From: Centipeda periodontii DSM 2778
GTDB lineage: Bacteria; Bacillota; Negativicutes; Selenomonadales; Selenomonadaceae
Reading direction: 5' to 3'
DNA: 64,000 nucleotides
Assembly (NCBI RefSeq): GCF_000213975.1
Contig: NZ_GL892076.1
Location: 1,501,337 to 1,565,336 of the forward strand
The notes under the pieces were generated by a model that saw only the letters and a list, made by a program, of their open reading frames with translations, did not search any database and was not told the DNA's origin. The position numbers and the translations under genes were made by a program. Below, piece by piece: positions 6,448 to 21,275 of this stretch (positions are counted from its first letter, which is position 1; each line of letters begins with the position of its first letter).

Positions 6448-7077
6448 ATGATTACAATTATAAATTACGGAGCTGGAAATTTGTTCAGCGTTGAGAAGGC
6501 TTTTGCGGCATTGGGGGCAGAAGTTCGTGTGAGTGGGAAAGCCGACGACATTCTTTCTTCAGATAAAATTGTTCTACCGGGAGTGGGCGCTTTTGGCGAC
6601 TGCATGAAGCAGCTCAAGGAATCGGGATTGATTCCTGCCATTCAGGAATGCGTTGATCGTGAGGTTCCCTTGCTTGGGATCTGTGTAGGTCTTCAAATTC
6701 TTTTTTCGGGAAGTGAGGAATCTTTCGGTATAGAGGGGCTTGGTTTGCTACGCGGTCATGTGCGAAAAATATCTGCGCCAAATGAAAAAATCCCACATAT
6801 GGGCTGGAATGCGCTCGATATTTCGGAAGCACACAGGGACAAGGGGCTGTTTAAGAGCGTACCGCAGGCTTCGTATGTGTATTTTGTGCACAGCTATCAT
6901 GCGGTCCCTGCAGAGCTTTCTATCATTTCTTCAACGTGTTTCTATGGAGAGAAAATTACGGCGTCCATATCTGCCGGAAATATTATGGCAACACAATTTC
7001 ATCCGGAAAAATCGGGGGATACCGGGTTAAAAGTTATTCAAAATTTTATTCGTAATGGACAGGAGGGAAGCAGGTGA
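6448..7077 (+). CDS. hisH: Imidazole glycerol phosphate synthase, glutaminase subunit HisH
   Basis: Class I glutamine amidotransferase that releases ammonia from glutamine and channels it to HisF. The triad is visible: the nucleophile Cys in LGICVGLQILF and the His-Glu pair in TQFHPEKSGDTG. NYGAGNLFSVEKA at the N-terminus is typical. 209 residues, normal length. Its TGA overlaps the GTG start of hisA. Confidence 0.97.
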   Translation: MITIINYGAGNLFSVEKAFAALGAEVRVSGKADDILSSDKIVLPGVGAFGDCMKQLKESGLIPAIQECVDREVPLLGICVGLQILFSGSEESFGIEGLGLLRGHVRKISAPNEKIPHMGWNALDISEAHRDKGLFKSVPQASYVYFVHSYHAVPAELSIISSTCFYGEKITASISAGNIMATQFHPEKSGDTGLKVIQNFIRNGQEGSR

Positions 7078-7796
7078 TTATTTTTCCTGCCATTGATTTA
7101 CGCGATGGAAAATGTGTCCGTCTGCTTAGAGGTGACTTTGCCAAGGAAACAGTCTACAGCAGCAACCCCGAAGATGTCGCCCTTCGTTGGGTACGGGAGG
7201 GAGCAGAGTACCTGCATGTGGTTGACCTTGATGGAGCACTTGCGGGAAAGCCCCAAAACACTGAGGTAATCAAGAAAATTCTCAGTAGTGTTCAAATTCC
7301 CATTGAGGTTGGCGGCGGTATACGCACTCTCGAAACCATAGAAAATACATTGGAACTTGGCGTAAAGCGTGTGATTCTTGGCTCTGTCGCCGTACAGAAT
7401 CGCAGCCTTATAAAGGAAGCCTGTCAGCGTTATCGTGATCGCATTGTCGTCGGAATTGATGCCAAGGATGGAATTACGGTCATTGATGGATGGGGGGTAT
7501 CGGGCGGAATTCCTGCCGTTGAATTGGCAAAAGAACTTGCTTCATTTGGTCTGAAAACGATCATATACACTGATATATCGCGGGACGGAACGCTCTCAGG
7601 CGTCAATATTGAGGCAACCTCAAAACTGGCAATCGAGTCCGGTGTGGATATCATTGCATCCGGCGGCGTGAAGTCATTGGAAGATATTCATGCACTCAAA
7701 AAACGTGAAGTCGATGGAATCGTCGGTGTAATTGCCGGCAAATCCATTTACGAAGGAACACTTTCTTTATCTGAGGCAATTGTTGCGGCTCGCTGA
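7074..7796 (+). CDS. hisA: ProFAR isomerase HisA
   Basis: A (beta/alpha)8-barrel isomerase (phosphoribosylformimino-5-aminoimidazole carboxamide ribotide isomerase). Starts with GTG in a GTGA overlap with hisH. The two catalytic Asp regions are [13 protein letters not shown] near the N-terminus and [12 protein letters not shown] in the second half; phosphate-binding glycine loops are GGGIRTLE and [11 protein letters not shown]. 240 residues, normal length. Confidence 0.96.
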
Positions 7797-7830
7797 GATG
7801 AATTCATCTTTTGAAAGGGGGAGTTCCATC

Positions 7831-8598
7831 TTGAAGAAAACATTTGCAAAGCGCATTATCCCCTGTCTTGATGTCAAGGATGGTCGTGTTGTTAAGGGGA
7901 CAAACTTTGTCGGATTGAGAGATGCCGGAAGCCCGACGGAATTAGCCGAACGCTATGATAAAGAACGCGCGGATGAACTCGTATTTCTGGATATTACGGC
8001 ATCGAATGAAGAACGGAATACCATGGTTGATGTTGTATCCGACTGTGCTTCAAAAGTTTTTATTCCACTCACTGTAGGCGGCGGGATTCGCAGTTTACAG
8101 GATATGCACCATATGCTGAAAGCAGGGGCAGATAAGATATCTGTCAATACTGCGGCAGTGAAAGATCCGGAAATCATACGCGAGGGAGCTTTGCGATTTG
8201 GAAGTCAGTGCATTGTCGTTGCGATTGATGCACGACGTAATGGCGCAGACTCGTGGGAGGTCTATATTAACGGAGGACGTACACCTACAGGGAAGGACTG
8301 CGTTTCTTGGGCAAAGGATGTTGTTGCGCTTGGTGCTGGAGAAATTTTACTGACAAGCATGGATGCTGACGGTACGAAGGATGGATATGACATTGAGCTT
8401 ACATGGGCTGTCTCTGAGAATGTAAATGTACCTGTGATTGCCTCGGGAGGAGCGGGTGCTCTCGAACATTTTTATGATGTGCTCACGGCAGGGAAAGCAG
8501 ATGCTGTACTCGCTGCATCCTTGTTTCACTATGGGGAACTTTCCATAAAAGAAGTGAAAATGTACTTAAAGTCACGTGGACTGGAGGTTCGATTCTGA
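7831..8598 (+). CDS. hisF: Imidazole glycerol phosphate synthase, cyclase subunit HisF
   Basis: Barrel cyclase that uses ammonia from HisH to make imidazole glycerol phosphate and AICAR; the AICAR feeds the purine pathway also encoded in this window. The start was set at a TTG ([13 protein letters not shown]) because AGGGGGAG lies seven bases upstream and the resulting 255 residues match the family; an ATG 33 bases earlier has no good binding site. Catalytic Asp residues are in [12 protein letters not shown] and [13 protein letters not shown]. Confidence 0.93.
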
Positions 8599-9302
8599 TG
8601 AATGTTGATATCTCAATGGTAAAATTTGATGAGCGTGGTCTTGTTCCTGCTGTTGTGCAGGAAGAGAACAATCAGGTGCTGATGCTCGCGTACATGAATC
8701 GCGAATCGCTTGAAAAAACGATTGAAACGGGATTTGCATGGTATTACAGCCGCCGCCGCAAAAAACTTTGGAAAAAAGGTGAAACCTCCGGAAACGTGCA
8801 GCGCGTGCAGGAGATCTCATATGACTGTGACGGTGATACGATACTTCTTCGTGTAAAACAGACGGGCGTATCTTGTCACACGGGCTCGTATTCGTGCTTT
8901 AGCGGGCGAAAAATTTATCGTGCAAACGAAAACAGCATCGTTCCTGTGAATGCAAATGATGAAATGTCGCTCACGGAGATTCTGTCTGATCTTTATCAGG
9001 TGATCCAGAGCCGTCGGCTTCATCCCGTCGAAGGTTCCTATACCAATTATCTTTTTGACAAAGGTCAAGACAAGATCTTAAAAAAGCTTGGCGAAGAAAC
9101 GGCCGAGACGATCATTGCATCCAAAAACAACATTCGCGAGGATGTGCTTTATGAGATGGGCGATCTCTGGTATCACTGCTTGGTGTTGTTGGCGTATCAT
9201 AATATGACGCCGGAGGATTTGCTTGAGGAATTGAAGCGCAGACATAACGGAGGCAGCTATCATAAATTTTCCGGAAAAACAGGAATGCGGCCAGACATGT
9301 AG
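8598..9302 (+). CDS. hisIE: Bifunctional phosphoribosyl-AMP cyclohydrolase / phosphoribosyl-ATP pyrophosphatase
   Basis: Carries out steps 2 and 3 of histidine synthesis. The N-terminal HisI domain (about residues 1-115) has [19 protein letters not shown], the metal-binding DCDGDT and Zn cysteines in [11 protein letters not shown]. The C-terminal HisE domain (about 125-234) has the pyrophosphohydrolase helix motif [15 protein letters not shown] and [13 protein letters not shown]. It overlaps hisF by one base and is the last gene of the operon. Confidence 0.96.
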
Positions 9303-9360: not shown

Positions 9361-9415
9361 TGAGAAAACTGGCTGCAAAGCTTGTGTAAAAATATGTGAA
9401 TTTTATAACTTGTCA

Positions 9416-9444
9416 TTGACAATAATCCAATTTGAATCTATAAT
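9416..9444 (+). promoter_or_regulatory. Perfect consensus sigma-70 promoter of the carboxyltransferase gene
   Basis: TTGACA, 17-bp spacer, TATAAT: all twelve hexamer positions match the consensus. It lies about 60 bp before the next start codon, suggesting strong constitutive transcription. Confidence 0.85.
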
Positions 9445-9503
9445 TTAGATGTTGGGTTATATAATTTTTGATTATACTTTTTAATCAAGGAGAGTGTTCT
9501 TTT

Positions 9504-10892
9504 ATGGCAAAGAATCCGGTCAAAATCACTGAGACTGTCCTCCGTGATGGTCACCAGTCACTGTTGGCAACCCGCATGAGAATCTCGGACATGCTTCCGC
9601 AGCTTGCTGCACTGGATGCGATTGGCTACAATTCTCTTGAGGCATGGGGCGGTGCTACGTTTGATAGCTGCCTGCGCTTCCTTGATGAGGATCCGTGGGA
9701 ACGTTTGGATATTTTGAAGAAGAATCTCAAAACGCCGATCCAGATGCTTCTCCGTGGACAAAACTTGCTTGGATATAACCACTACTCCAACGATGTTGTG
9801 GAGAAGTTTGTTCAGAAGGCATCCGAACATGGTGTTGGTGTATTCCGTATTTTTGATGCACTCAACGATATCCGCAACCTCAAGGTTGCGATTGACGCGG
9901 CACTCAAGTGCCCCGAGAAGCCGCATGTTCAGGGTTGTCTGGTCTATACGATCAGTCCTGTTCACACGAATGAGAGCTTTGTTGAGCTTGCTGTTGAACT
10001 TGAAAAGATGGGCTGCCATTCCGTTTGCATTAAGGATATGTCAGGGCTTCTGAAGCCGTATGTGGCAGAAGATCTTGTCAAGAAGCTCAAAGCTGCGGTG
10101 AAGATTCCTATTGATCTTCACACGCACTGCACTTCCGGATTCGGTCATGCGACCTATTTGAAGGCGGTCGAAGCTGGTGTTGACATCATTGATACCGCGC
10201 TTGCCCCCTTCTCAAGTGACACCTCGCAGCCGTGTACGGAGACGATGGTGGCGATGCTTGAGGGTGAGGAGCGTGATACGGGACTCAACCGTCAGGCGAT
10301 GACGCCGATCTCGAAGTATTTCCTCGGAGTCAAGCAGGATCTCATCAAGACATTCAACCTCAAAGGCTATTTCGATGTGAACCCGAACGTGCTGGACTTC
10401 CAGATTCCAGGCGGAATGCTTTCCAACCTCGCAAACCAGCTCAAGGAAGCAGGTATGGAGGACAAGTATCAGGATCTGCTGGATGAGATGCCGCGTGTTC
10501 GCAAAGATGTCGGCTATCCTCCCCTCGTTACGCCGTCCTCGCAGATTGTCGGTACGATGGCGACCTTCAATGTGATGACCGGTGAGCGTTACAAGATGGT
10601 TCCGACTGAGTTCAAAGATCTCGCACGCGGCAAGTTCGGCAGGACCCCTGTTGAGATCGACCGCAAGTTCTTGACTGACACGCTTGGCATTGCACCGGAG
10701 GACATCATTGAGGACTGCTCCATTGAGGATGCAAAGGCAACGACGTTCGCAGAGTTCAAGGAAGAACTGAAAGCCAAGGGATATCTCAACCCCTCGGATG
10801 AGGATGTTCTCTCCTATGCTCTCTTCCCGCAGGTTGCGGAAGAGTTCTTCCAGAAGCATTATAAGCCGATCACTGCTTACGTAAAAGAGTAA
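9504..10892 (+). CDS. Biotin-dependent carboxyltransferase subunit (oxaloacetate decarboxylase alpha / pyruvate carboxylase B / transcarboxylase 5S type)
   Basis: Carboxyltransferase of the HMGL-like TIM-barrel family that moves CO2 between oxaloacetate or pyruvate and carboxybiotin. The start was set at the ATG of MAKNPVKITETVL, which follows AAGGAGAG. Motifs: TETVLRDGHQSLLATRMR, the carbamylated lysine region CIKDMSGLLKP and metal histidines in DLHTHCTSGFGHAT. At 462 residues it holds the barrel and the conserved C-terminal helical part but no biotinyl domain (no AMKM motif), so a separate carrier protein is required. Which acceptor it uses cannot be decided from sequence; succinate-propionate metabolism of Negativicutes makes a transcarboxylase or decarboxylase role plausible. 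Confidence 0.88.
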   Translation: MAKNPVKITETVLRDGHQSLLATRMRISDMLPQLAALDAIGYNSLEAWGGATFDSCLRFLDEDPWERLDILKKNLKTPIQMLLRGQNLLGYNHYSNDVVEKFVQKASEHGVGVFRIFDALNDIRNLKVAIDAALKCPEKPHVQGCLVYTISPVHTNESFVELAVELEKMGCHSVCIKDMSGLLKPYVAEDLVKKLKAAVKIPIDLHTHCTSGFGHATYLKAVEAGVDIIDTALAPFSSDTSQPCTETMVAMLEGEERDTGLNRQAMTPISKYFLGVKQDLIKTFNLKGYFDVNPNVLDFQIPGGMLSNLANQLKEAGMEDKYQDLLDEMPRVRKDVGYPPLVTPSSQIVGTMATFNVMTGERYKMVPTEFKDLARGKFGRTPVEIDRKFLTDTLGIAPEDIIEDCSIEDAKATTFAEFKEELKAKGYLNPSDEDVLSYALFPQVAEEFFQKHYKPITAYVKE

Positions 10893-14494: not shown

Positions 14495-15325
14495 CTACGC
14501 AGGAATTTCTACATCTGGAACAACGATACGCGGAGCTTTCCCCTTCGGCAGAAGAGTGAATACGGATGATAGGAGTTTTCGAGTATAGGGGTGCTTTGCA
14601 TGTGCGAGATCTCGTCCATCCAGCTGCTCCACAACTTTTCCGAAGTACATGACAATAACGCGCGTACAAAGGCGTGATACCAGTGCCAAATCATGACAAA
14701 TGAAGAGAATGGTCAAATTGCGTTCCCGCTGAATACGGACAAGCAGTTCAACAATCGTCTCCTGCACAGAAACATCAAGCGCGCTCGTCGCCTCATCACA
14801 GACCAGAATCTCCGGCTCCAATGCCAGTGCACGCGCAATCCCGACGCGCTGACGCTGTCCCCCGCTCATATTTGCAGGATAGCGTTCGGCAAATTCCTCG
14901 GGCAGATCGACAAGCCGCAATAATTCAGCCGCCTTGTCCCGTGCACTCCCCTTGAGGAGTCCGAAGTTGCGCAGAGGTTCACAGATGATGTCCTTGATCT
15001 TCATCTTTGGATTAAACGATGTCGTCGGATCTTGGAATACCATCTGGATATTGCGCCGCATATTGCGCGCGGCCTCACCTTTCAGCCCCGTGATCTCCTG
15101 ATCCTTAAAGAAAATTTGTCCCTCGGACGGCGCATGCAGCTGCATGAGCGTACGCACAAGCGTACTCTTGCCGCAGCCACTCTCACCGACAATACCGAGA
15201 ATCTCTCCACGATACACGGGAAATGTCACATTGTCACACGCTGTAAGGACCTTGCCGCCCTCCAGAGGAAAGCGCTTCGTTATATGCTCGATGCGAAGAA
15301 TTTTCTCACGCTCCGACTGCGTCAT
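14495..15325 (-). CDS. Opp/Nik-type ABC transporter ATP-binding protein (OppF/DppF-like)
   Basis: Second of two ATPases that power the importer at the inner membrane face. Start at MTQSEREKILRIEHI, placed by a GGAGGGGAG site; further upstream in-frame starts lie inside the neighbouring ATPase gene. Walker A GESGCGKSTLVRT, signature MSGGQRQRVGIARAL, Walker B ILVCDEATSALDVS, switch His in FICHDLALVS. 276 residues. Its start overlaps the end of the upstream ATPase gene by 20 bases. Part of a five-gene operon under a cobalamin riboswitch. Confidence 0.92.
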   Translation of the reverse strand: MTQSEREKILRIEHITKRFPLEGGKVLTACDNVTFPVYRGEILGIVGESGCGKSTLVRTLMQLHAPSEGQIFFKDQEITGLKGEAARNMRRNIQMVFQDPTTSFNPKMKIKDIICEPLRNFGLLKGSARDKAAELLRLVDLPEEFAERYPANMSGGQRQRVGIARALALEPEILVCDEATSALDVSVQETIVELLVRIQRERNLTILFICHDLALVSRLCTRVIVMYFGKVVEQLDGRDLAHAKHPYTRKLLSSVFTLLPKGKAPRIVVPDVEIPA

Positions 15326-16103
15326 AACGCTCCCCTCCAATCTGCGGTACGGCACGCAGGAGTTCCTTTGTGTAAGGATTCTGCGCGTGTTCAATAATCT
15401 CTGCGGCGGTTCCGTGTTCAACGACATTGCCGTTCTGCATGACCAAGATCTGGTCAGACATATAGGCGGCAACGCCGAGATTATGTGTCACAAGGACAAT
15501 CGATGTGCCGTCTTTCTGGCAGATATCCATCATTTCATTAACGACCTGTGCCTGCGTGGTCACGTCCAATGCAGACGTGGGCTCATCGGCAAGCAGAAGT
15601 GCCGGTTTGAAGAACATCGCCATGGCAACGCCGACACGCTGACGCATACCGCCGGAGAGTTCAAACGGAAAACTCTTCATGACGTTCGTAGGATTCGAGA
15701 GATGCATACGCGCGAGCATATCCTGTGCTTGTGCAGTTGCTTCCTTCGTCCCCATCGTGTCATGTGTCTGAATGTACTCTACGAACTGTTCACCGATGGT
15801 TCGGATCGGATCCATCATACTCCCGCTGTCCTGAAAGATCATCGCAGCGGTCTTGCCGCTGACATGACGCCATTCCTCTGCAGAGCATTTCGCCATATCC
15901 TTATCGTCATAGAGGATCTCACCGGCTGTTACTCTGCCGACATGTGGCAGGCAGCCCAGCATCGCCCGAATGACGGTGGTCTTTCCGCTGCCGCTTTCGC
16001 CGACAATGGTCAGAACTTCTCCGCCCTTGAGAGTGAAGTCCACACCGTGCACCATTTCCGTGCCCTCGTATGCGATTTTGAGCCCTCGCACCTCAATTAA
16101 CAT
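15306..16103 (-). CDS. Opp/Nik-type ABC transporter ATP-binding protein (OppD/DppD-like)
   Basis: First ATPase of the importer. Walker A GESGSGKTTVIRAM, signature LSGGMRQRVGVAMAM, Walker B LLLADEPTSALDVT. At 265 residues it is shorter than OppD (about 330) and lacks most of the C-terminal oligopeptide-type extension, a feature shared with nickel-type NikD. That fits a metal or small-ligand importer better than an oligopeptide one, though it is not decisive. Confidence 0.92.
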   Translation of the reverse strand: MLIEVRGLKIAYEGTEMVHGVDFTLKGGEVLTIVGESGSGKTTVIRAMLGCLPHVGRVTAGEILYDDKDMAKCSAEEWRHVSGKTAAMIFQDSGSMMDPIRTIGEQFVEYIQTHDTMGTKEATAQAQDMLARMHLSNPTNVMKSFPFELSGGMRQRVGVAMAMFFKPALLLADEPTSALDVTTQAQVVNEMMDICQKDGTSIVLVTHNLGVAAYMSDQILVMQNGNVVEHGTAAEIIEHAQNPYTKELLRAVPQIGGERYDAVGA

Positions 16104-16121: not shown

Positions 16122-17687
16122 TTACTTTGCAGGTTTGATCTTGTTCGTGATCCAGTAGTAGTCTGCCGGATGCATAATTGCGCCCGTGATCTTCGTGGAG
16201 CTGATGATGTTCGTCTCGGGATAACCGAGGAATAGCGCTGCGCCGTCGTCCAGCAGGATCTGCTGCATATCGATCATCAGCTGACGGCGCTTTGCAGGAT
16301 CAAATTCAACGGCGAGTTCAGCGCACTTCGCATCGTATGCAGGATTGCTGTAACCGGAGCCGTTCTGCGGGTTGTTGCCGTTGATGTTCGTGCGCCAGTA
16401 CCAGTTAAGGTAAATCTCGGGGTCACCCGTATTTGCCGTCGTGATGTTGGAAATCAGCAGGTCATACTCACCATTGATTCCAATTTTATCAAGAAGATTG
16501 TAATCAACCGTCTTGACCTTCACATCGATGCCGACCTTCTTCGCATCTGCCTGGACTGCCTCTGCATAGATCGGCAGCTCAGCACGGCTGTTGTAGATGA
16601 TAAAGTCCACAGACAGCGGTTTGCCGTCCTTATCGCGAATGCCGTCGCCGTCTGTATCCTTCCAGCCTGCCTCGTCGAGGAGCTGCTTTGCGCGGTCGAC
16701 ATTATAGGCATTCGGATCGGTCAGCTGATCGAAACCATAGTCAAGAGAGGGCGGAACCGGAGCCTTTCCCGGGATAAAGGTCCCTTTGAGGATAACCTCA
16801 TTGTACGCCTTGCGGTCCGTCATCGAAATGAACGCAGCGCGTACCTTCGGGTCGCCAAGAATCCCCTTTTGGTTGATGCGCGCCAAAACCGTACGCAGCG
16901 ATGCAATGCGGTCAACATGGAACTTCGCAGTGTCGCTGAAGAGCCCAATATCACCGGCAGCAATGTTGACTGCCATATCGACCTCACCCGATTGGAGAGC
17001 CATCGCGCGTGTATTCGGATCGTCGATGGACGGAATCTCTACCGTTTCAAAGGGAACTTCTCCGCCCCAGTAGTTCGGGTTCTTCTTCATGACGGCCTTT
17101 TCCTTCACGAAGGACTCGCAGATGTACGGACCGGTGCAGATGGGCCCCTGTGTTGCAAAATTGCGTTCCTTTTCGCTCTCGACATCGACGATGAGGAAGA
17201 GGGGGTCTGCGAGATAACCAAGCATACTCGGTGCCGGCTTCTCTGTCGTGATCTTGAGTGTCTGTCCGTCCGCCTCCATATTCGTATACTTGAAGAAGGT
17301 TGCTGCGCGTGTATTCTTCGCAAATGTACGCTCAAGGGATGCCTTGACCGCTGCAGCTGTCAGAGGCCTGCCGTTCGAAAACTTAACATCACGAATTTTG
17401 AATATCCACGTCAGCTTATCGTCACTGATCTCCCAGCTCTCGGCAAGCCACGGCTGGATGTTCATCTTTTCATCAAACTGCGTCAGTGTCTCCCCCATGC
17501 CATAGCGCATGACGACCCATCCAAATGCATTCTCCGTGGGTTCAAGAGAATCCGCAAAATTTGTAACGCCGACCTTCAGCGTCGTTTTGTCGCCTGCGGA
17601 CTGGTTTCCGCCGCCGCAGCCTGTCAGGAGCGCTGCTGCCATACAGCCAGTCAGAAGTGCCGCAAGCCATCTTTTTTTCTTTCCCAT
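16122..17687 (-). CDS. Family 5 solute-binding lipoprotein of the ABC importer
   Basis: Extracytoplasmic receptor for the importer. A lipoprotein signal peptide is clear: KKKR, a hydrophobic core and the lipobox LLTGC at about residues 20-24, then a GGGNQS linker. The mature protein has the family 5 pattern (PWLAESWEISDD, VKFSNGRPLTAAAVKASLERT, NYWGGEVPFETVEI). The ETLTQFDEKMNIQPWLAESWE region, together with FSNGRPLTAAAVK, resembles nickel-type receptors of Firmicutes more than DppA. The ligand is not proven; the upstream cobalamin riboswitch points to cobalt, a corrinoid or another B12-linked solute. Confidence 0.88.
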   Translation of the reverse strand: MGKKKRWLAALLTGCMAAALLTGCGGGNQSAGDKTTLKVGVTNFADSLEPTENAFGWVVMRYGMGETLTQFDEKMNIQPWLAESWEISDDKLTWIFKIRDVKFSNGRPLTAAAVKASLERTFAKNTRAATFFKYTNMEADGQTLKITTEKPAPSMLGYLADPLFLIVDVESEKERNFATQGPICTGPYICESFVKEKAVMKKNPNYWGGEVPFETVEIPSIDDPNTRAMALQSGEVDMAVNIAAGDIGLFSDTAKFHVDRIASLRTVLARINQKGILGDPKVRAAFISMTDRKAYNEVILKGTFIPGKAPVPPSLDYGFDQLTDPNAYNVDRAKQLLDEAGWKDTDGDGIRDKDGKPLSVDFIIYNSRAELPIYAEAVQADAKKVGIDVKVKTVDYNLLDKIGINGEYDLLISNITTANTGDPEIYLNWYWRTNINGNNPQNGSGYSNPAYDAKCAELAVEFDPAKRRQLMIDMQQILLDDGAALFLGYPETNIISSTKITGAIMHPADYYWITNKIKPAK

Positions 17688-17698
17688 TTGTTCCTCCT

Positions 17699-18511
17699 TT
17701 AATTCACCTTGCGCGGGTCCATAATATCCCGCAGACTATCTCCCCAAAGATTAAATACCGCAACGACGATGACAATCGCCAGTCCGGGGAAGATCATAAG
17801 CCAGGGCGCCGTCTGAATCAGCTGGCGGCCCTCATTCAGCATGAGGCCCCATTCCGGCGTCGGCGGCTGTGCGCCGAATCCGAGGAAGGAGAGCCCCGCA
17901 AGCTCCATCATGAGTGCCCCAATATCGAGCGCCGCTGTCACAATGATGATCGGCAGGATGTTCGGCAGGATATGCCGCCGAATCATATCCGCCTGTCGTG
18001 TACCGTTTGTAATGGCGGCAGCCAAATAATCCTGCTGCTTCACTTTCAGGGTCAAGCTGCGTGCGAGGCGTGCATACTTCGTCCAACCGACAACCACAAT
18101 GGCCAGGACTGCATTGACAGCACTGCCGCCAAGCACACCTGCAATTGCAATCGCAAGCACAATGCCCGGAAATGCCAGAAAAATATCAGCAAGCCGCATG
18201 ATTACTGTATCGACCTTGCCGCCGACATAGGCGGAGATGACACCTATCAGCGTGCCAAGCCCCGCAATGAGAACGACAACAAACAGTGTCATTGTCAACG
18301 AAACCCGTGCACCATAGAGCACTCGAGTAAAGAGATCACGCCCCAGCTTATCCGTTCCGAAGTAGTGCTCGGCAGATGGCTGGAGCAGAGACATCTGAAT
18401 CTGCGATTCATATGGATCATACGAAGTAAGCAAAGGCGCAAAGATTGCAGCGAGCGCAATCAACAGGATCAGCCCCGTATAGAGACGAAAGAGAAGCGCA
18501 TCTCTTGTCAT
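17699..18511 (-). CDS. ABC transporter permease (DppC/NikC-like)
   Basis: Inner-membrane permease of 270 residues. A first transmembrane segment (LILLIALAAIFAPLLTSYDP) is followed by the OppC-type N-terminal region and five further segments. The ATPase-docking EAA loop is seen around YLAAAITNGTRQADMIRRHILPN. It pairs with the DppB-like permease upstream, with which it overlaps by four bases (ATGA). Confidence 0.92.
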   Translation of the reverse strand: MTRDALLFRLYTGLILLIALAAIFAPLLTSYDPYESQIQMSLLQPSAEHYFGTDKLGRDLFTRVLYGARVSLTMTLFVVVLIAGLGTLIGVISAYVGGKVDTVIMRLADIFLAFPGIVLAIAIAGVLGGSAVNAVLAIVVVGWTKYARLARSLTLKVKQQDYLAAAITNGTRQADMIRRHILPNILPIIIVTAALDIGALMMELAGLSFLGFGAQPPTPEWGLMLNEGRQLIQTAPWLMIFPGLAIVIVVAVFNLWGDSLRDIMDPRKVN

Positions 18512-19452
18512 GATTTCGCCCCCTTTCGCAGTCTCGGATCCAGATAGGTATAGGATATATCAACAATCAGATTCACAATCATATAGAGCGTTGCAATCCA
18601 GAGGACAAAGCCCTGCAGGAGCGGGTAGTCGCGTGTCTCAATCGCACGCACAGCAAGACGTCCGATGCCCGGCCACGAGAATACAATCTCAATAACGGCA
18701 ACACCACCGAGCAGCCAGCCAATGGCAAGACCGAGCAGTGTGATGAGCGGCAGGAAAGCATTTGGCAAGACATGACGCAGGAGAATTCGTGACATCGCCA
18801 TACCGCGTGCCTTAAGACCCGTGACATAGTCCTGTCCGAGCTCCTCAAGCACAGCCGTGCGCACCTGCCGCGTATACTTCGATGAGAGCAGGATCGCAAG
18901 CGTAAAGGCAGGAAGAATCATACGATCCAGACTTACCTCGCCGCCCGCAATCGGGAAAAGCCCCAGTTTTAGACCAAAGACATAGAGCAGAATGAGTCCC
19001 ACCCAAAAGCTTGGCATGGAGACACCGAGAAAGGTGAAGATGCGGATGATCTGATCCGGCCAGCGGTTGCGATAAAGTGCCGACACAACGCCTGCCGGAA
19101 TGGAAATCAGCAGCATCATAATAACCGCTGTTCCTGCCAAGAGCAGTGTCCCCGGCAGATTCTGGAGAAGCTTATCCTTCACAGGGATCTTCGCAGAATA
19201 GGACATTCCCATATCGCCATGTACAACCCCATCCAGCCAGCGAATATACTGCTGATGAAACGGAAGATCGAGCCCGAGCTCATGGCGTGTTCGCTCGATT
19301 GTCTCCTGCGAAACAATGGTATCGCCCGTCTCCAAGATCGCATCCACAGGATCACCTGGAGCAAAAAATGTCAGCGCAAATGTTAAGAACGTTACACCCA
19401 ATAACGTGAGCAGCATTTGGCCAAGACGCATCAGCAAGGCTTTTGCACTCAA
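18508..19452 (-). CDS. ABC transporter permease (DppB/NikB-like)
   Basis: First gene of the importer operon and the partner permease. Starts with TTG (SAKALLMRLGQ) eight bases after AAAGGAG. 314 residues with six transmembrane segments; EAA loop at DYVTGLKARGMAMSRILLRH; SWPGIGRLAVRAIETRDYPLL is the conserved C-terminal DppB pattern. The leader of this gene contains the cobalamin riboswitch. Confidence 0.92.
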   Translation of the reverse strand: MSAKALLMRLGQMLLTLLGVTFLTFALTFFAPGDPVDAILETGDTIVSQETIERTRHELGLDLPFHQQYIRWLDGVVHGDMGMSYSAKIPVKDKLLQNLPGTLLLAGTAVIMMLLISIPAGVVSALYRNRWPDQIIRIFTFLGVSMPSFWVGLILLYVFGLKLGLFPIAGGEVSLDRMILPAFTLAILLSSKYTRQVRTAVLEELGQDYVTGLKARGMAMSRILLRHVLPNAFLPLITLLGLAIGWLLGGVAVIEIVFSWPGIGRLAVRAIETRDYPLLQGFVLWIATLYMIVNLIVDISYTYLDPRLRKGAKS

Positions 19453-19480
19453 CTCCCCAACTCCTTTGTAATTATTGCAT

Positions 19481-19513
19481 ATTAAAACCGCTTATCTCAT
19501 AAGAAAAAGCGGC
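19481..19513 (-). terminator. Possible expression-platform terminator of the riboswitch
   Basis: Minus-strand GCCGCTT pairs with AAGCGGT over a 13-nt loop and is followed by TTTAAT, about 30 bp before the first permease start. Just upstream another hairpin (GCAATGATGTGTCT with AGACATATCATTGC) could act as the competing structure. This is a reading by eye, not a folding calculation. Confidence 0.5.
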
Positions 19514-19589
19514 ACAAACAAGCTGCAATGATATGTCTCTGTGCAAGACACATCATTGCCTTATTCATCTCCCCATCTCTCGTGAGTCC

Positions 19590-19790
19590 AGCAATGAATC
19601 CTATTGCGAGCAGGCTTTCCGGCTCATAGATCAGCGCGTTCCTCCGCCTTCCCGGTTTGCACCAGTGACTTTACGGGCACAGGCTCTGTGCCTGTGGAAG
19701 AACACTCCCTATTTACGGCTGCGGGACAGCATGGGCATCACACCCATTTTCCTCTCATCGCACAACGGACATTTTCAAAGTACAAAGTAC
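19590..19790 (-). ncRNA. Cobalamin (adenosylcobalamin) riboswitch
   Basis: Read on the minus strand, the leader has the conserved order of the B12 riboswitch: GAGAGGAAAATGGGTG, GATGCCCATGCTGTCCCGC and AGCCGTAA (the GGGAA..GGTG..CCC..CTGTCCCGC..TGTAA core), then CACTGGTGCAAACCGGG, and finally the B12-box-like GAGCCGGAAAGCCTGCTCGC. It starts roughly 50 bp after a good promoter and ends about 140 bp before the permease gene. B12 riboswitches normally turn genes off when adenosylcobalamin is plentiful. The exact ends are approximate. Confidence 0.87.
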
Positions 19791-19844
19791 ATTGTCCATT
19801 GACACTCGCAACGTATTATTTAATTTTATAATAACACAAAATGT

Positions 19845-19873
19845 AGTATATCCATATCTGGTATACTTGTCAA
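19845..19873 (-). promoter_or_regulatory. Promoter of the riboswitch-importer operon, with inverted repeat
   Basis: Minus-strand TTGACA, 17-bp spacer, TATACT. The spacer begins AGTATACCA and the -10 region ends TGGATATACT, so AGTATA...TATACT forms an inverted repeat over 19845-19867 that covers the -10. This could be an operator for a repressor. Confidence 0.72.
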
Positions 19874-19940: not shown

Positions 19941-21275
19941 TTAGAATAGTTTCCATGTGCCGTGGTAATTTTTTTGATATACACCGTACAAGAGGAGCCC
20001 GGCACATGCGGCACGTATACTTTGATCCAGTACGAGAGACATCCATGCTCCCTCAAGTCCCATATTGAGTTTATAGAGGAATATATATGTGATGATGGGG
20101 CGAAGTACCGTAATGCTCACAAAGGAGTACGCAGCGACCTGCGTTGTTTTTTCACTGGCACGCAGAATTCCCGTACATACCATCTGATATGCCTCCGGAA
20201 AGCTCACGACAGCGACATATGCGATGATCAGACTTCCGAGCGGCACGAGTGACGAATCATGAGCATAGATGCCGAAGATTTCCTCACGCAGGAGAAATGT
20301 TATGAGAAATGCTGCGATGGAAAAAATCAAACTCCAGCGCATTCCACTCCAGAGATAGCGCCTCCACTCATCCTGCTTATGTATATCCCGATTGTGCCCT
20401 GCGAGGACTGTACTCGCCTTGCCCATCCCATTGCAGAAACTGTAATAGAAATCACAGAAGTTCATAGCGATTGCATGGACAGCATAGGGTATTGTCCCAA
20501 GTTCGGCGACCATGCGTGTATAAACAACCATACCGATGCGCTCAAATCCCTGTTCGCTGAAAATCCCACCGAATACGCTGAGAAATTCACGCATATATGT
20601 GCGTGTCAGATAATAATTCCCTTGATTGAAGATGCCCCATATATAGAGCACACGCAGGGTGAGGCAGAATGACCATATAGAGCCTCCGACCGTCCCGAGT
20701 GCGGCGCCAAGTACACCAAGCTGTGGGAATGGACCGAGCCCAAAGATGAGAAGTGCATTGAGGACGACATTGATAACATTTCCTTGTATATTGATCGAGA
20801 GGACGCGCATGGATTCTCCACGACCAAACATGACTGCCTGCATGAGTGTTGTGACAGATGTGATAAAGACGGCGGGTAATGTCCAGAGACCGTAAATCAT
20901 GGCATCCGTTAAATAGTCCTGTTGTGCGCCCATCCAGAGAAGAATAGAATCAAGGTAGATAAAGAAGCCGACATGAGCAAGTCCAAGAACGACGATAACC
21001 AGAACCATCGTTTTTTTGAGAATATCGCCATAGGTGTCGTGTTCATCCCGGCCGAATCGTTCAGCAATCAGTATGGTAACGGTGGCCGCGACTGAACGTG
21101 CCACGGTGAGGAGCATCATGCGAGGTTGTGTAAAGATACTGACTGCCGCAATGGCGCCTGTTCCGAGCATGCCAACCATAATGATGTCGGCATTGCTCAG
21201 AAAAATCATCAGGACGCCTTCCAACGCCGCAGGAAGTCCGATCTTCAAATAGTTTTTGTCATAGGATGTCAGCAC
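19941..21275 (-). CDS. MATE family efflux transporter
   Basis: Inner-membrane exporter of 444 residues with about twelve transmembrane segments in two homologous halves; such proteins usually expel cationic drugs or metabolites in exchange for Na+ or H+. GLPAALEGVLMIFLSNADIIMVGMLG at the N-terminus is the conserved MatE start and VSFPEAYQMVCTGILRA marks the second half. GTG start behind GGAGAGGA. It is transcribed alone and ends about 70 bp before the riboswitch promoter, with no obvious terminator between. The substrate is unknown. Confidence 0.88.
   Translation of the reverse strand: MLTSYDKNYLKIGLPAALEGVLMIFLSNADIIMVGMLGTGAIAAVSIFTQPRMMLLTVARSVAATVTILIAERFGRDEHDTYGDILKKTMVLVIVVLGLAHVGFFIYLDSILLWMGAQQDYLTDAMIYGLWTLPAVFITSVTTLMQAVMFGRGESMRVLSINIQGNVINVVLNALLIFGLGPFPQLGVLGAALGTVGGSIWSFCLTLRVLYIWGIFNQGNYYLTRTYMREFLSVFGGIFSEQGFERIGMVVYTRMVAELGTIPYAVHAIAMNFCDFYYSFCNGMGKASTVLAGHNRDIHKQDEWRRYLWSGMRWSLIFSIAAFLITFLLREEIFGIYAHDSSLVPLGSLIIAYVAVVSFPEAYQMVCTGILRASEKTTQVAAYSFVSITVLRPIITYIFLYKLNMGLEGAWMSLVLDQSIRAACAGLLLYGVYQKNYHGTWKLF

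Follow-up and report, generated by a model that had tools for sequence, protein, structure and literature searches.

A cobalamin riboswitch ahead of a conserved Nik-type ABC importer, probably for cobalt, in Centipeda periodontii and other Negativicutes

In PMC2667541, the NikABCDE systems of Clostridium tetani and Desulfitobacterium hafniense are listed with a predicted B12 riboswitch upstream and are set apart from nickel-specific systems (citing Rodionov et al., 2006); such systems had been predicted as cobalt importers already in 2009 on the strength of that 2006 work. Here we describe a cobalamin riboswitch and the five-gene ATP-binding cassette (ABC) importer behind it in a stretch of 64,000 nt from Centipeda periodontii DSM 2778 (NZ_GL892076.1, positions 1,501,337 to 1,565,336; hereafter the window). 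This locus has in common with the C. tetani and D. hafniense systems that a predicted B12 riboswitch precedes a Nik-type importer, and differs from them in its lineage, in its B-C-A-D-E gene order, in its occurrence in many genomes and in the presence of cbiK, MATE or SLH genes in some of the units. A Negativicute example is also in print: a comparison of 38 functional riboswitches in a Bacillus subtilis reporter (PMC9600662, 2022) includes the nikA riboswitch of Sporomusa ovata among those used and calls it promiscuous. It is likewise a B12 riboswitch named after nikA; in Sporomusa sp. KB1 the importer described here has an orthologue (locus L100). The excerpts of PMC4285132, PMC3766115, PMC8123684 and PMC7689651 contain no further Nik case. 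The novelty of the present finding is therefore modest, as the idea and one such switch were already in print; what is added is a further member, conserved across many genomes and better supported by its genomic context.

The nickel importer NikABCDE of Escherichia coli shares with the importer in the window the same five subunits, fold class and sequence models, but the operon in the window appears to be B12-controlled and its genome has no NikR match. CbiMNQO is an energy-coupling factor (ECF) importer that supplies cobalt for B12 synthesis and is often under the control of B12 riboswitches; it would share its role with the importer in the window, although the two transporters are unrelated. 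We propose that B12 represses the importer in the window, a Nik-type ABC system, and that it mainly carries cobalt, either as Co2+ or as a small cobalt chelate, and put the probability of this at about 80%. The features of the riboswitch leader and the importer operon are as follows.

19845 to 19873, minus strand: promoter-like TTGACA-17-TATACT, 11 of 12 matches, weak alone.
19592 to 19811, minus strand: cobalamin riboswitch aptamer, from the cmscan match at 19592-19791 and a P1 stem found by eye; aligned with 27 others.
19525 to 19559, minus strand: hairpin of 15 pairs between the aptamer and the terminator-like hairpin, its T-rich tail weak; passes the strict terminator rule.
19484 to 19513, minus strand: terminator-like hairpin, CCGCTT..AAGCGG followed by TTTT, with a bulged stem, from RNA folding; fails the strict rule.
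18508 to 19452, minus strand: permease of the NikB/Opp2B class, 314 amino acids, TTG start; NF045470 (Opp2B) 394.6 bits, cut-off 350.
17699 to 18511, minus strand: permease of the NikC/Opp2C class, 270 amino acids; NF045474 (Opp2C) 328.6 bits, cut-off 300.
16122 to 17687, minus strand: NikA-like receptor of the SBP_bac_5 family, 521 amino acids; PF00496 301 bits, Opp5A_nikA 318 bits, cut-off 600.
15306 to 16103, minus strand: short NikD-like ATPase, 265 amino acids; TIGR02770 239.5 bits, cut-off 318.7.
14495 to 15325, minus strand: NikE/OppF-like ATPase, its ATG start picked by reading in an open reading frame that runs to 15472; OppF NF011659 261.2 bits and NikE TIGR02769 253.4 bits, both below cut-off.

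The riboswitch, whose core elements had been recognized on the minus strand in an initial annotation of the sequence, is confirmed by the covariance model of the Cobalamin family (RF00174), which matched 19592-19791 with 68.3 bits against a gathering score of 31.5 (E value 9.6e-15, model positions 1-189). No other Rfam match in the window reaches its gathering score. The riboswitch lies 140 nt upstream of the nikB-like gene. By eye, TTGCGAG (19811-19805) pairs with CTCGCAA (19610-19604) as the P1 stem, which places the start of the aptamer about 20 nt upstream of the start of the cmscan match. Among the eight Cobalamin riboswitches of the genome it scores lowest, the others reaching 85.0 to 106.8 bits. 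The good promoter noted in the initial annotation does match the consensus closely; however, the scanned stretch contained four promoter-like sites, compared with 1.5 (standard deviation 1.1) in shuffled sequences, so that such a site is weak evidence by itself.

The five minus-strand genes follow each other in the order B-C-A-D-E with overlaps or short gaps, and their products are assigned to the Pfam families SBP_bac_5, BPD_transp_1 and ABC_tran. The five-gene importer of the nickel/peptide class reported initially is present, but the range assigned to it (16122-19873) holds only B, C and A, and the operon extends to 14495. Both permeases exceed the curated NCBIfam cut-offs for the nickel-type Opp2B and Opp2C. 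The best NCBIfam model for D is NikD, with CntF and CntD at most 3 bits behind, and D covers only 32 of the 65 positions of oligo_HPY at a score below cut-off, in agreement with its early description as a shortened OppD-like ATPase. The N-terminus of the receptor reads, by eye, as that of a lipoprotein, and its closest solved relative is 3t66.

The structure of the receptor was modelled with AlphaFold2 (mean predicted local distance difference test score, pLDDT, 75.4; residues 305-315, 415-421 and 435-445 below 50). Foldseek placed NikA (2noo, 1zlq) on top, while VIA-align placed a family-5 protein of Bacillus anthracis (5u4o) first, with Z 36.9, 2.3 Å and 459 aligned residues, followed by NikZ (Z 36.0), YliB (35.9) and DppA (35.1). 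As NikA and peptide binders align equally well, fold comparison was dropped as a means to discriminate metal from peptide receptors. The early suggestion of a metal-type receptor thus holds for its sequence class, NikA models being the best, and finds no backing in the fold.

Conservation of the unit was examined in 60 related genomes, including that of the window itself (2.76 Mb), and in a scan of named genomes from which 80 of 121 loci were kept (L087-L166), drawn from Selenomonas, Pelosinus, Anaerospora, Sporomusa, Propionispira, Megamonas, Mitsuokella, Anaerovibrio, Schwartzia, Veillonella and relatives with less precise names. Seventy-two named loci were informative after omission of those without nikB (L120, L134, L156, L164) or at a contig edge (L101, L115, L123, L161). 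The related (L052-L075) and named locus sets overlap in several genomes, and riboswitch counts were therefore kept separate; for gene neighbours both sets and the window were pooled (101 loci, with a named subset of 76 with nikB). It should be noted that all locus counts are phylogenetically non-independent and that short contigs may conceal neighbours.

By reading, an orthologue of the receptor was found in 25 of the 60 related genomes at 68-100% identity, compared with at most 41% for the next group and 59% for one extra lone copy; the orthologue of genome G014 is only partial. In G006 the receptor gene is split into two overlapping frames (L074:3532-5147), by a frameshift or a sequencing error. 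The order B-C-A-D-E is kept in every complete related locus (24 neighbourhoods, of which L075 stops within A). Adjacency to a riboswitch was scored on the extracted loci scanned with Rfam or with our own model R1 (18 base pairs). The 28 riboswitches on which R1 is based come in part from the same genomes as the named loci. Rfam detected a Cobalamin riboswitch in 23 of the 24 related operons, 21 of them at 110-265 nt before the nikB match and two (L066, L075) with genes between riboswitch and nikB. Among the informative named loci, counted with R1, 62 of 72 have a riboswitch before the operon, 55 at 112-282 nt from nikB and 7 with intervening genes; all 11 of the R1 positives re-scanned with Rfam, mostly the weakest ones, were confirmed. 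No Cobalamin riboswitch was found at any of six non-orthologous Nik operons of the same family (L078, L079, L081, L082, L083, L085), and L080, a further divergent Nik operon, has one of its own. A divergent second Nik-like importer in the genome of the window (L010:3175-9619, from G000:C1:1118174 on) also stands directly behind a Cobalamin riboswitch and has an M20 amidohydrolase gene after it; L084 carries a like operon with a riboswitch. In five Veillonella loci (L157, L159, L161, L163, L165) nikE is followed by all or part of a further receptor gene (38-53% identical), an arrangement that looks like two receptors sharing a single ATPase/permease core.

The leaders between riboswitch and importer suggest how the switch may act. 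With a rule of at least 7 pairs (G-T allowed), at least 3 of them G-C, a loop of 3-9 and 5 T in 8, terminator-like hairpins were found in 45 of the 55 named leaders in which the riboswitch directly precedes nikB, compared with a mean of 2.45 in 20 mononucleotide shuffles. This form is kept despite very different stem sequences (e.g., L093, L160 and L138). The leader of the window meets the rule by its 15-pair hairpin alone, the tail of which is weak, and the likelier terminator downstream is bulged; the leaders of L089 and L091 share the bulged stem and fail the rule. The bulged CCGCTT..AAGCGG hairpin is likely the expression platform, and the 15-pair hairpin may be either a terminator or an alternative-pairing element. 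Taken together, these leader sequences are consistent with transcription attenuation. When corrinoid is plentiful, the aptamer would fold and the leader would end at the intrinsic terminator; when corrinoid is scarce, read-through of the leader would allow the operon to be expressed. The receptor would then pass cobalt to the B-C permease, for which the ATPases D and E would supply the energy. CbiK, under a B12 riboswitch of its own, would insert the cobalt into the corrin ring.

The genomic context of the importer points to cobalt. CbiD was found in the genome of the window by a family search, and the cluster around it reads as cbiDETFGHJC, cbiA, cobU, cbiP, cbiB and cobS, the family search having been made for CbiD alone. 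The match to the cobalt chelatase CbiK begins about 300 nt after another Cobalamin riboswitch. A B12 riboswitch thus stands ahead of importer genes in a genome with B12-making genes, as is expected of a B12-controlled cobalt importer. The cbi/cob cluster itself (L077) showed no Rfam Cobalamin match in 19.9 kb, though cbiK and the importers have one. Elsewhere, the linkage is direct: cbiK stands in one string with the importer in three named genomes, and cbiD lies upstream in three more. Propionispira arboris (L066, L099) has the order riboswitch-cbiK-MATE-BCADE (CbiK PF06180, 261 bits), and two genomes of S. ruminantium (L122, L135) have the order riboswitch-BCADE-cbiK-MATE, after which another Nik operon begins and the locus ends behind its B and C genes; cbiK was called there by tblastn at 46 and 44%. 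In L102, L103 and L160 (and L067), cbiD is upstream of MATE, riboswitch and BCADE.

The importer also tends to occur where CbiM is missing. Among the 56 genomes with CbiD, CbiM was matched in 2 of the 25 that hold the importer and in 18 of the other 31 (Fisher P = 9e-5), and by genus in 2 of 14 compared with 16 of 27 (P = 0.008), relatedness being ignored in both tests. One of the two exceptions, in G036, is probably NikM, as NikR was matched only 95 bp away. None of the 14 genomes searched in the genus of the window has a CbiM match. The importer may answer the question of cobalt supply in many B12-making Negativicutes without CbiMNQO. The results also suggest that in Selenomonas, Veillonella, Pelosinus and Anaerovibrio cobalt is the cargo of importers whose genes probably carry a nickel or peptide annotation.

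Several observations weigh against a cobalt cargo. The top NCBIfam models of the receptor are NikA models, but the scores remain below cut-off (NF045468, 318 of 600 bits; TIGR02294, 199 of 393 bits). None of the six site residues of E. coli NikA is kept: residues 97, 100, 137, 398, 402 and 416 align with A128, F131, L163, T417, G421 and I435 of the receptor in one phmmer alignment to a mutant NikA chain at about 25% identity, in which single positions may be off. The cobalt reading accordingly rests on context and not on the binding pocket. No riboswitch was detectable at 10 of the 72 informative named operons and at 1 of the 24 related ones (L073), and Rfam re-scanning of 11 R1-negative loci gave no Cobalamin match (counted as 0 of 10 without L161, which has scant upstream DNA). 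Neither importer nor CbiM was found in 13 of the 56 genomes with CbiD, two of them in the genus of the window (G010, G011), which indicates that other cobalt routes exist. In the genome of the window, CbiM/NikM (PF01891) and NicO gave no match, with CbtA, CbtJ, HupE and CorA not searched, and the divergent second Nik-like importer could be the cobalt route instead.

The same genome has a full-length match to a NiFe hydrogenase (G000:C1:622519-624240) and no CbiM/NikM, NicO or NikR match (NikR was matched in 4 of the 60 genomes and in none of the genus), and it lacks the other Nik paralogue, with a receptor 36-39% identical, that is present in all 13 genus mates. Nickel may therefore share the importer, which also counts against cobalt as its main cargo. 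On this alternative, the importer would carry nickel alone or both metals equally, and the riboswitch would do no more than place a general Ni/Co importer under additional control by B12. NikA-type receptors take both metals with chelators, and the permeases pass the NCBIfam "nickel" models. However, B12 does not signal a need for nickel, and a cobalt chelatase or cbiD occurs in some of the gene strings. No nickel enzyme was noticed beside the operons, where no search aimed at one was made. Moreover, the paralogue that may serve nickel is the one without a riboswitch in any of the six loci scanned, three of which are in the genus (L078, L079, L083). We consider a nickel or general Ni/Co importer unlikely, though it is the alternative that survives best.

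B12 riboswitches often control corrinoid uptake, and a corrinoid or corrinoid precursor was among the cargoes first proposed, together with cobalt and cobalt chelates. In the genome of the window, however, a TonB receptor and genes that read as Btu-like stand behind another riboswitch; they illustrate such control and at the same time seem to cover corrinoid uptake. When this TonB receptor was used as query against the 101 operon loci, only one weak, opposite-strand match was obtained in a single genome (L062, identical to L092), whereas an SLH-domain protein neighbours 15 of the 101. The NikA-like receptor class and the linkage to cbiK indicate a metal. Given the linkage to cbiK and cbiD, the tendency of the importer to occur where CbiM is missing, and the TonB/Btu-like genes behind another riboswitch, cobalt or a cobalt chelate is preferred, and a corrinoid cargo is very improbable. 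The first reading of the sequence was right on the riboswitch and most likely also on cobalt. An ordinary oligopeptide importer that gained a B12 riboswitch, which would fit the SBP_bac_5/BPD_transp_1 family common to Opp and Dpp systems, the receptor fold that aligns with peptide binders as well as with NikA and the higher OppF (261 bits) than NikE (253 bits) score of E, is the least probable cargo assignment of all, as nickel-type models outrank those of Opp/Dpp for every subunit but E and as the operon is linked to cobalt chelatase and negatively associated with CbiM.

In addition to the genes of cobalt metabolism, two other kinds of neighbours recur at the cobalt-importer candidates. The first of them is found in the window at the following position.

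19941 to 21275, minus strand: MATE-family transporter (PF01554), upstream of the riboswitch and outside its transcript.

Of the 76 named loci that contain nikB, 40 have a MATE gene near the operon, in every case on the operon's strand. In the pooled set the count is 56 of 101, again always on that strand by first match. No MATE match was obtained at 10 further Nik-type loci, which include a lone receptor. As the genome of the window has about six MATE genes, a MATE neighbour by chance should be rare. The neighbouring MATE genes form two subgroups that are unjoined by BLAST and occupy several positions: between riboswitch and nikB in L099, L112, L137, L144 and L162, and close downstream of nikE, with or without cbiK in between, in L107, L109, L110, L122, L126 and L135. 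Some of the matches are weak or distant (23% identity in L094; 3.5 kb off in L092).

The 15 SLH-domain neighbours, eight of which fall among the 76 named loci, are on the same strand as the operon. The SLH gene lies in or after the operon in L063, L065, L069, L070, L071, L073, L075, L096, L097, L100, L112, L117, L126, L132 and L137, and between riboswitch and nikB in L075, L100, L112, L126 and L137. Pfam searches with two of these proteins found SLH in both and, additionally, Porin_5 in one.

The same-strand linkage of MATE genes, their presence within riboswitch-led units and their absence from the 10 other Nik-type loci suggested a cobalt-chelator cycle, in which MATE would export a small cobalt-binding molecule at B12 shortage, the Nik-type importer would retrieve the complex, and the SLH porin-like protein present in some of the operons would allow it to cross the outer membrane. 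We regard this cycle as a long shot. The clustered neighbourhoods revealed no conserved gene for biosynthesis, and the MATE gene of the window, as in most of the genus, is outside the riboswitch transcript, both of which count against it. A match to the opine dehydrogenase family was found in none of the 60 genomes, but the control likewise matched nowhere and the search is uninformative. The term "cobaltophore" was not found in the literature searched, and a search on cobalamin riboswitch and MATE returned nothing relevant; we make no claim of unpublished status beyond that search. The MATE and SLH partners are nevertheless the part most worth following, as a lead on what B12 makers switch on at cobalt shortage.

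Apart from the importers, a Cobalamin riboswitch at about 9400-9630 on the minus strand of L013 precedes a gene (6793-8976) that by reading encodes the B12-dependent methylmalonyl-CoA mutase. As a mutA riboswitch of V. parvula is named in PMC9600662, this case is known in kind.

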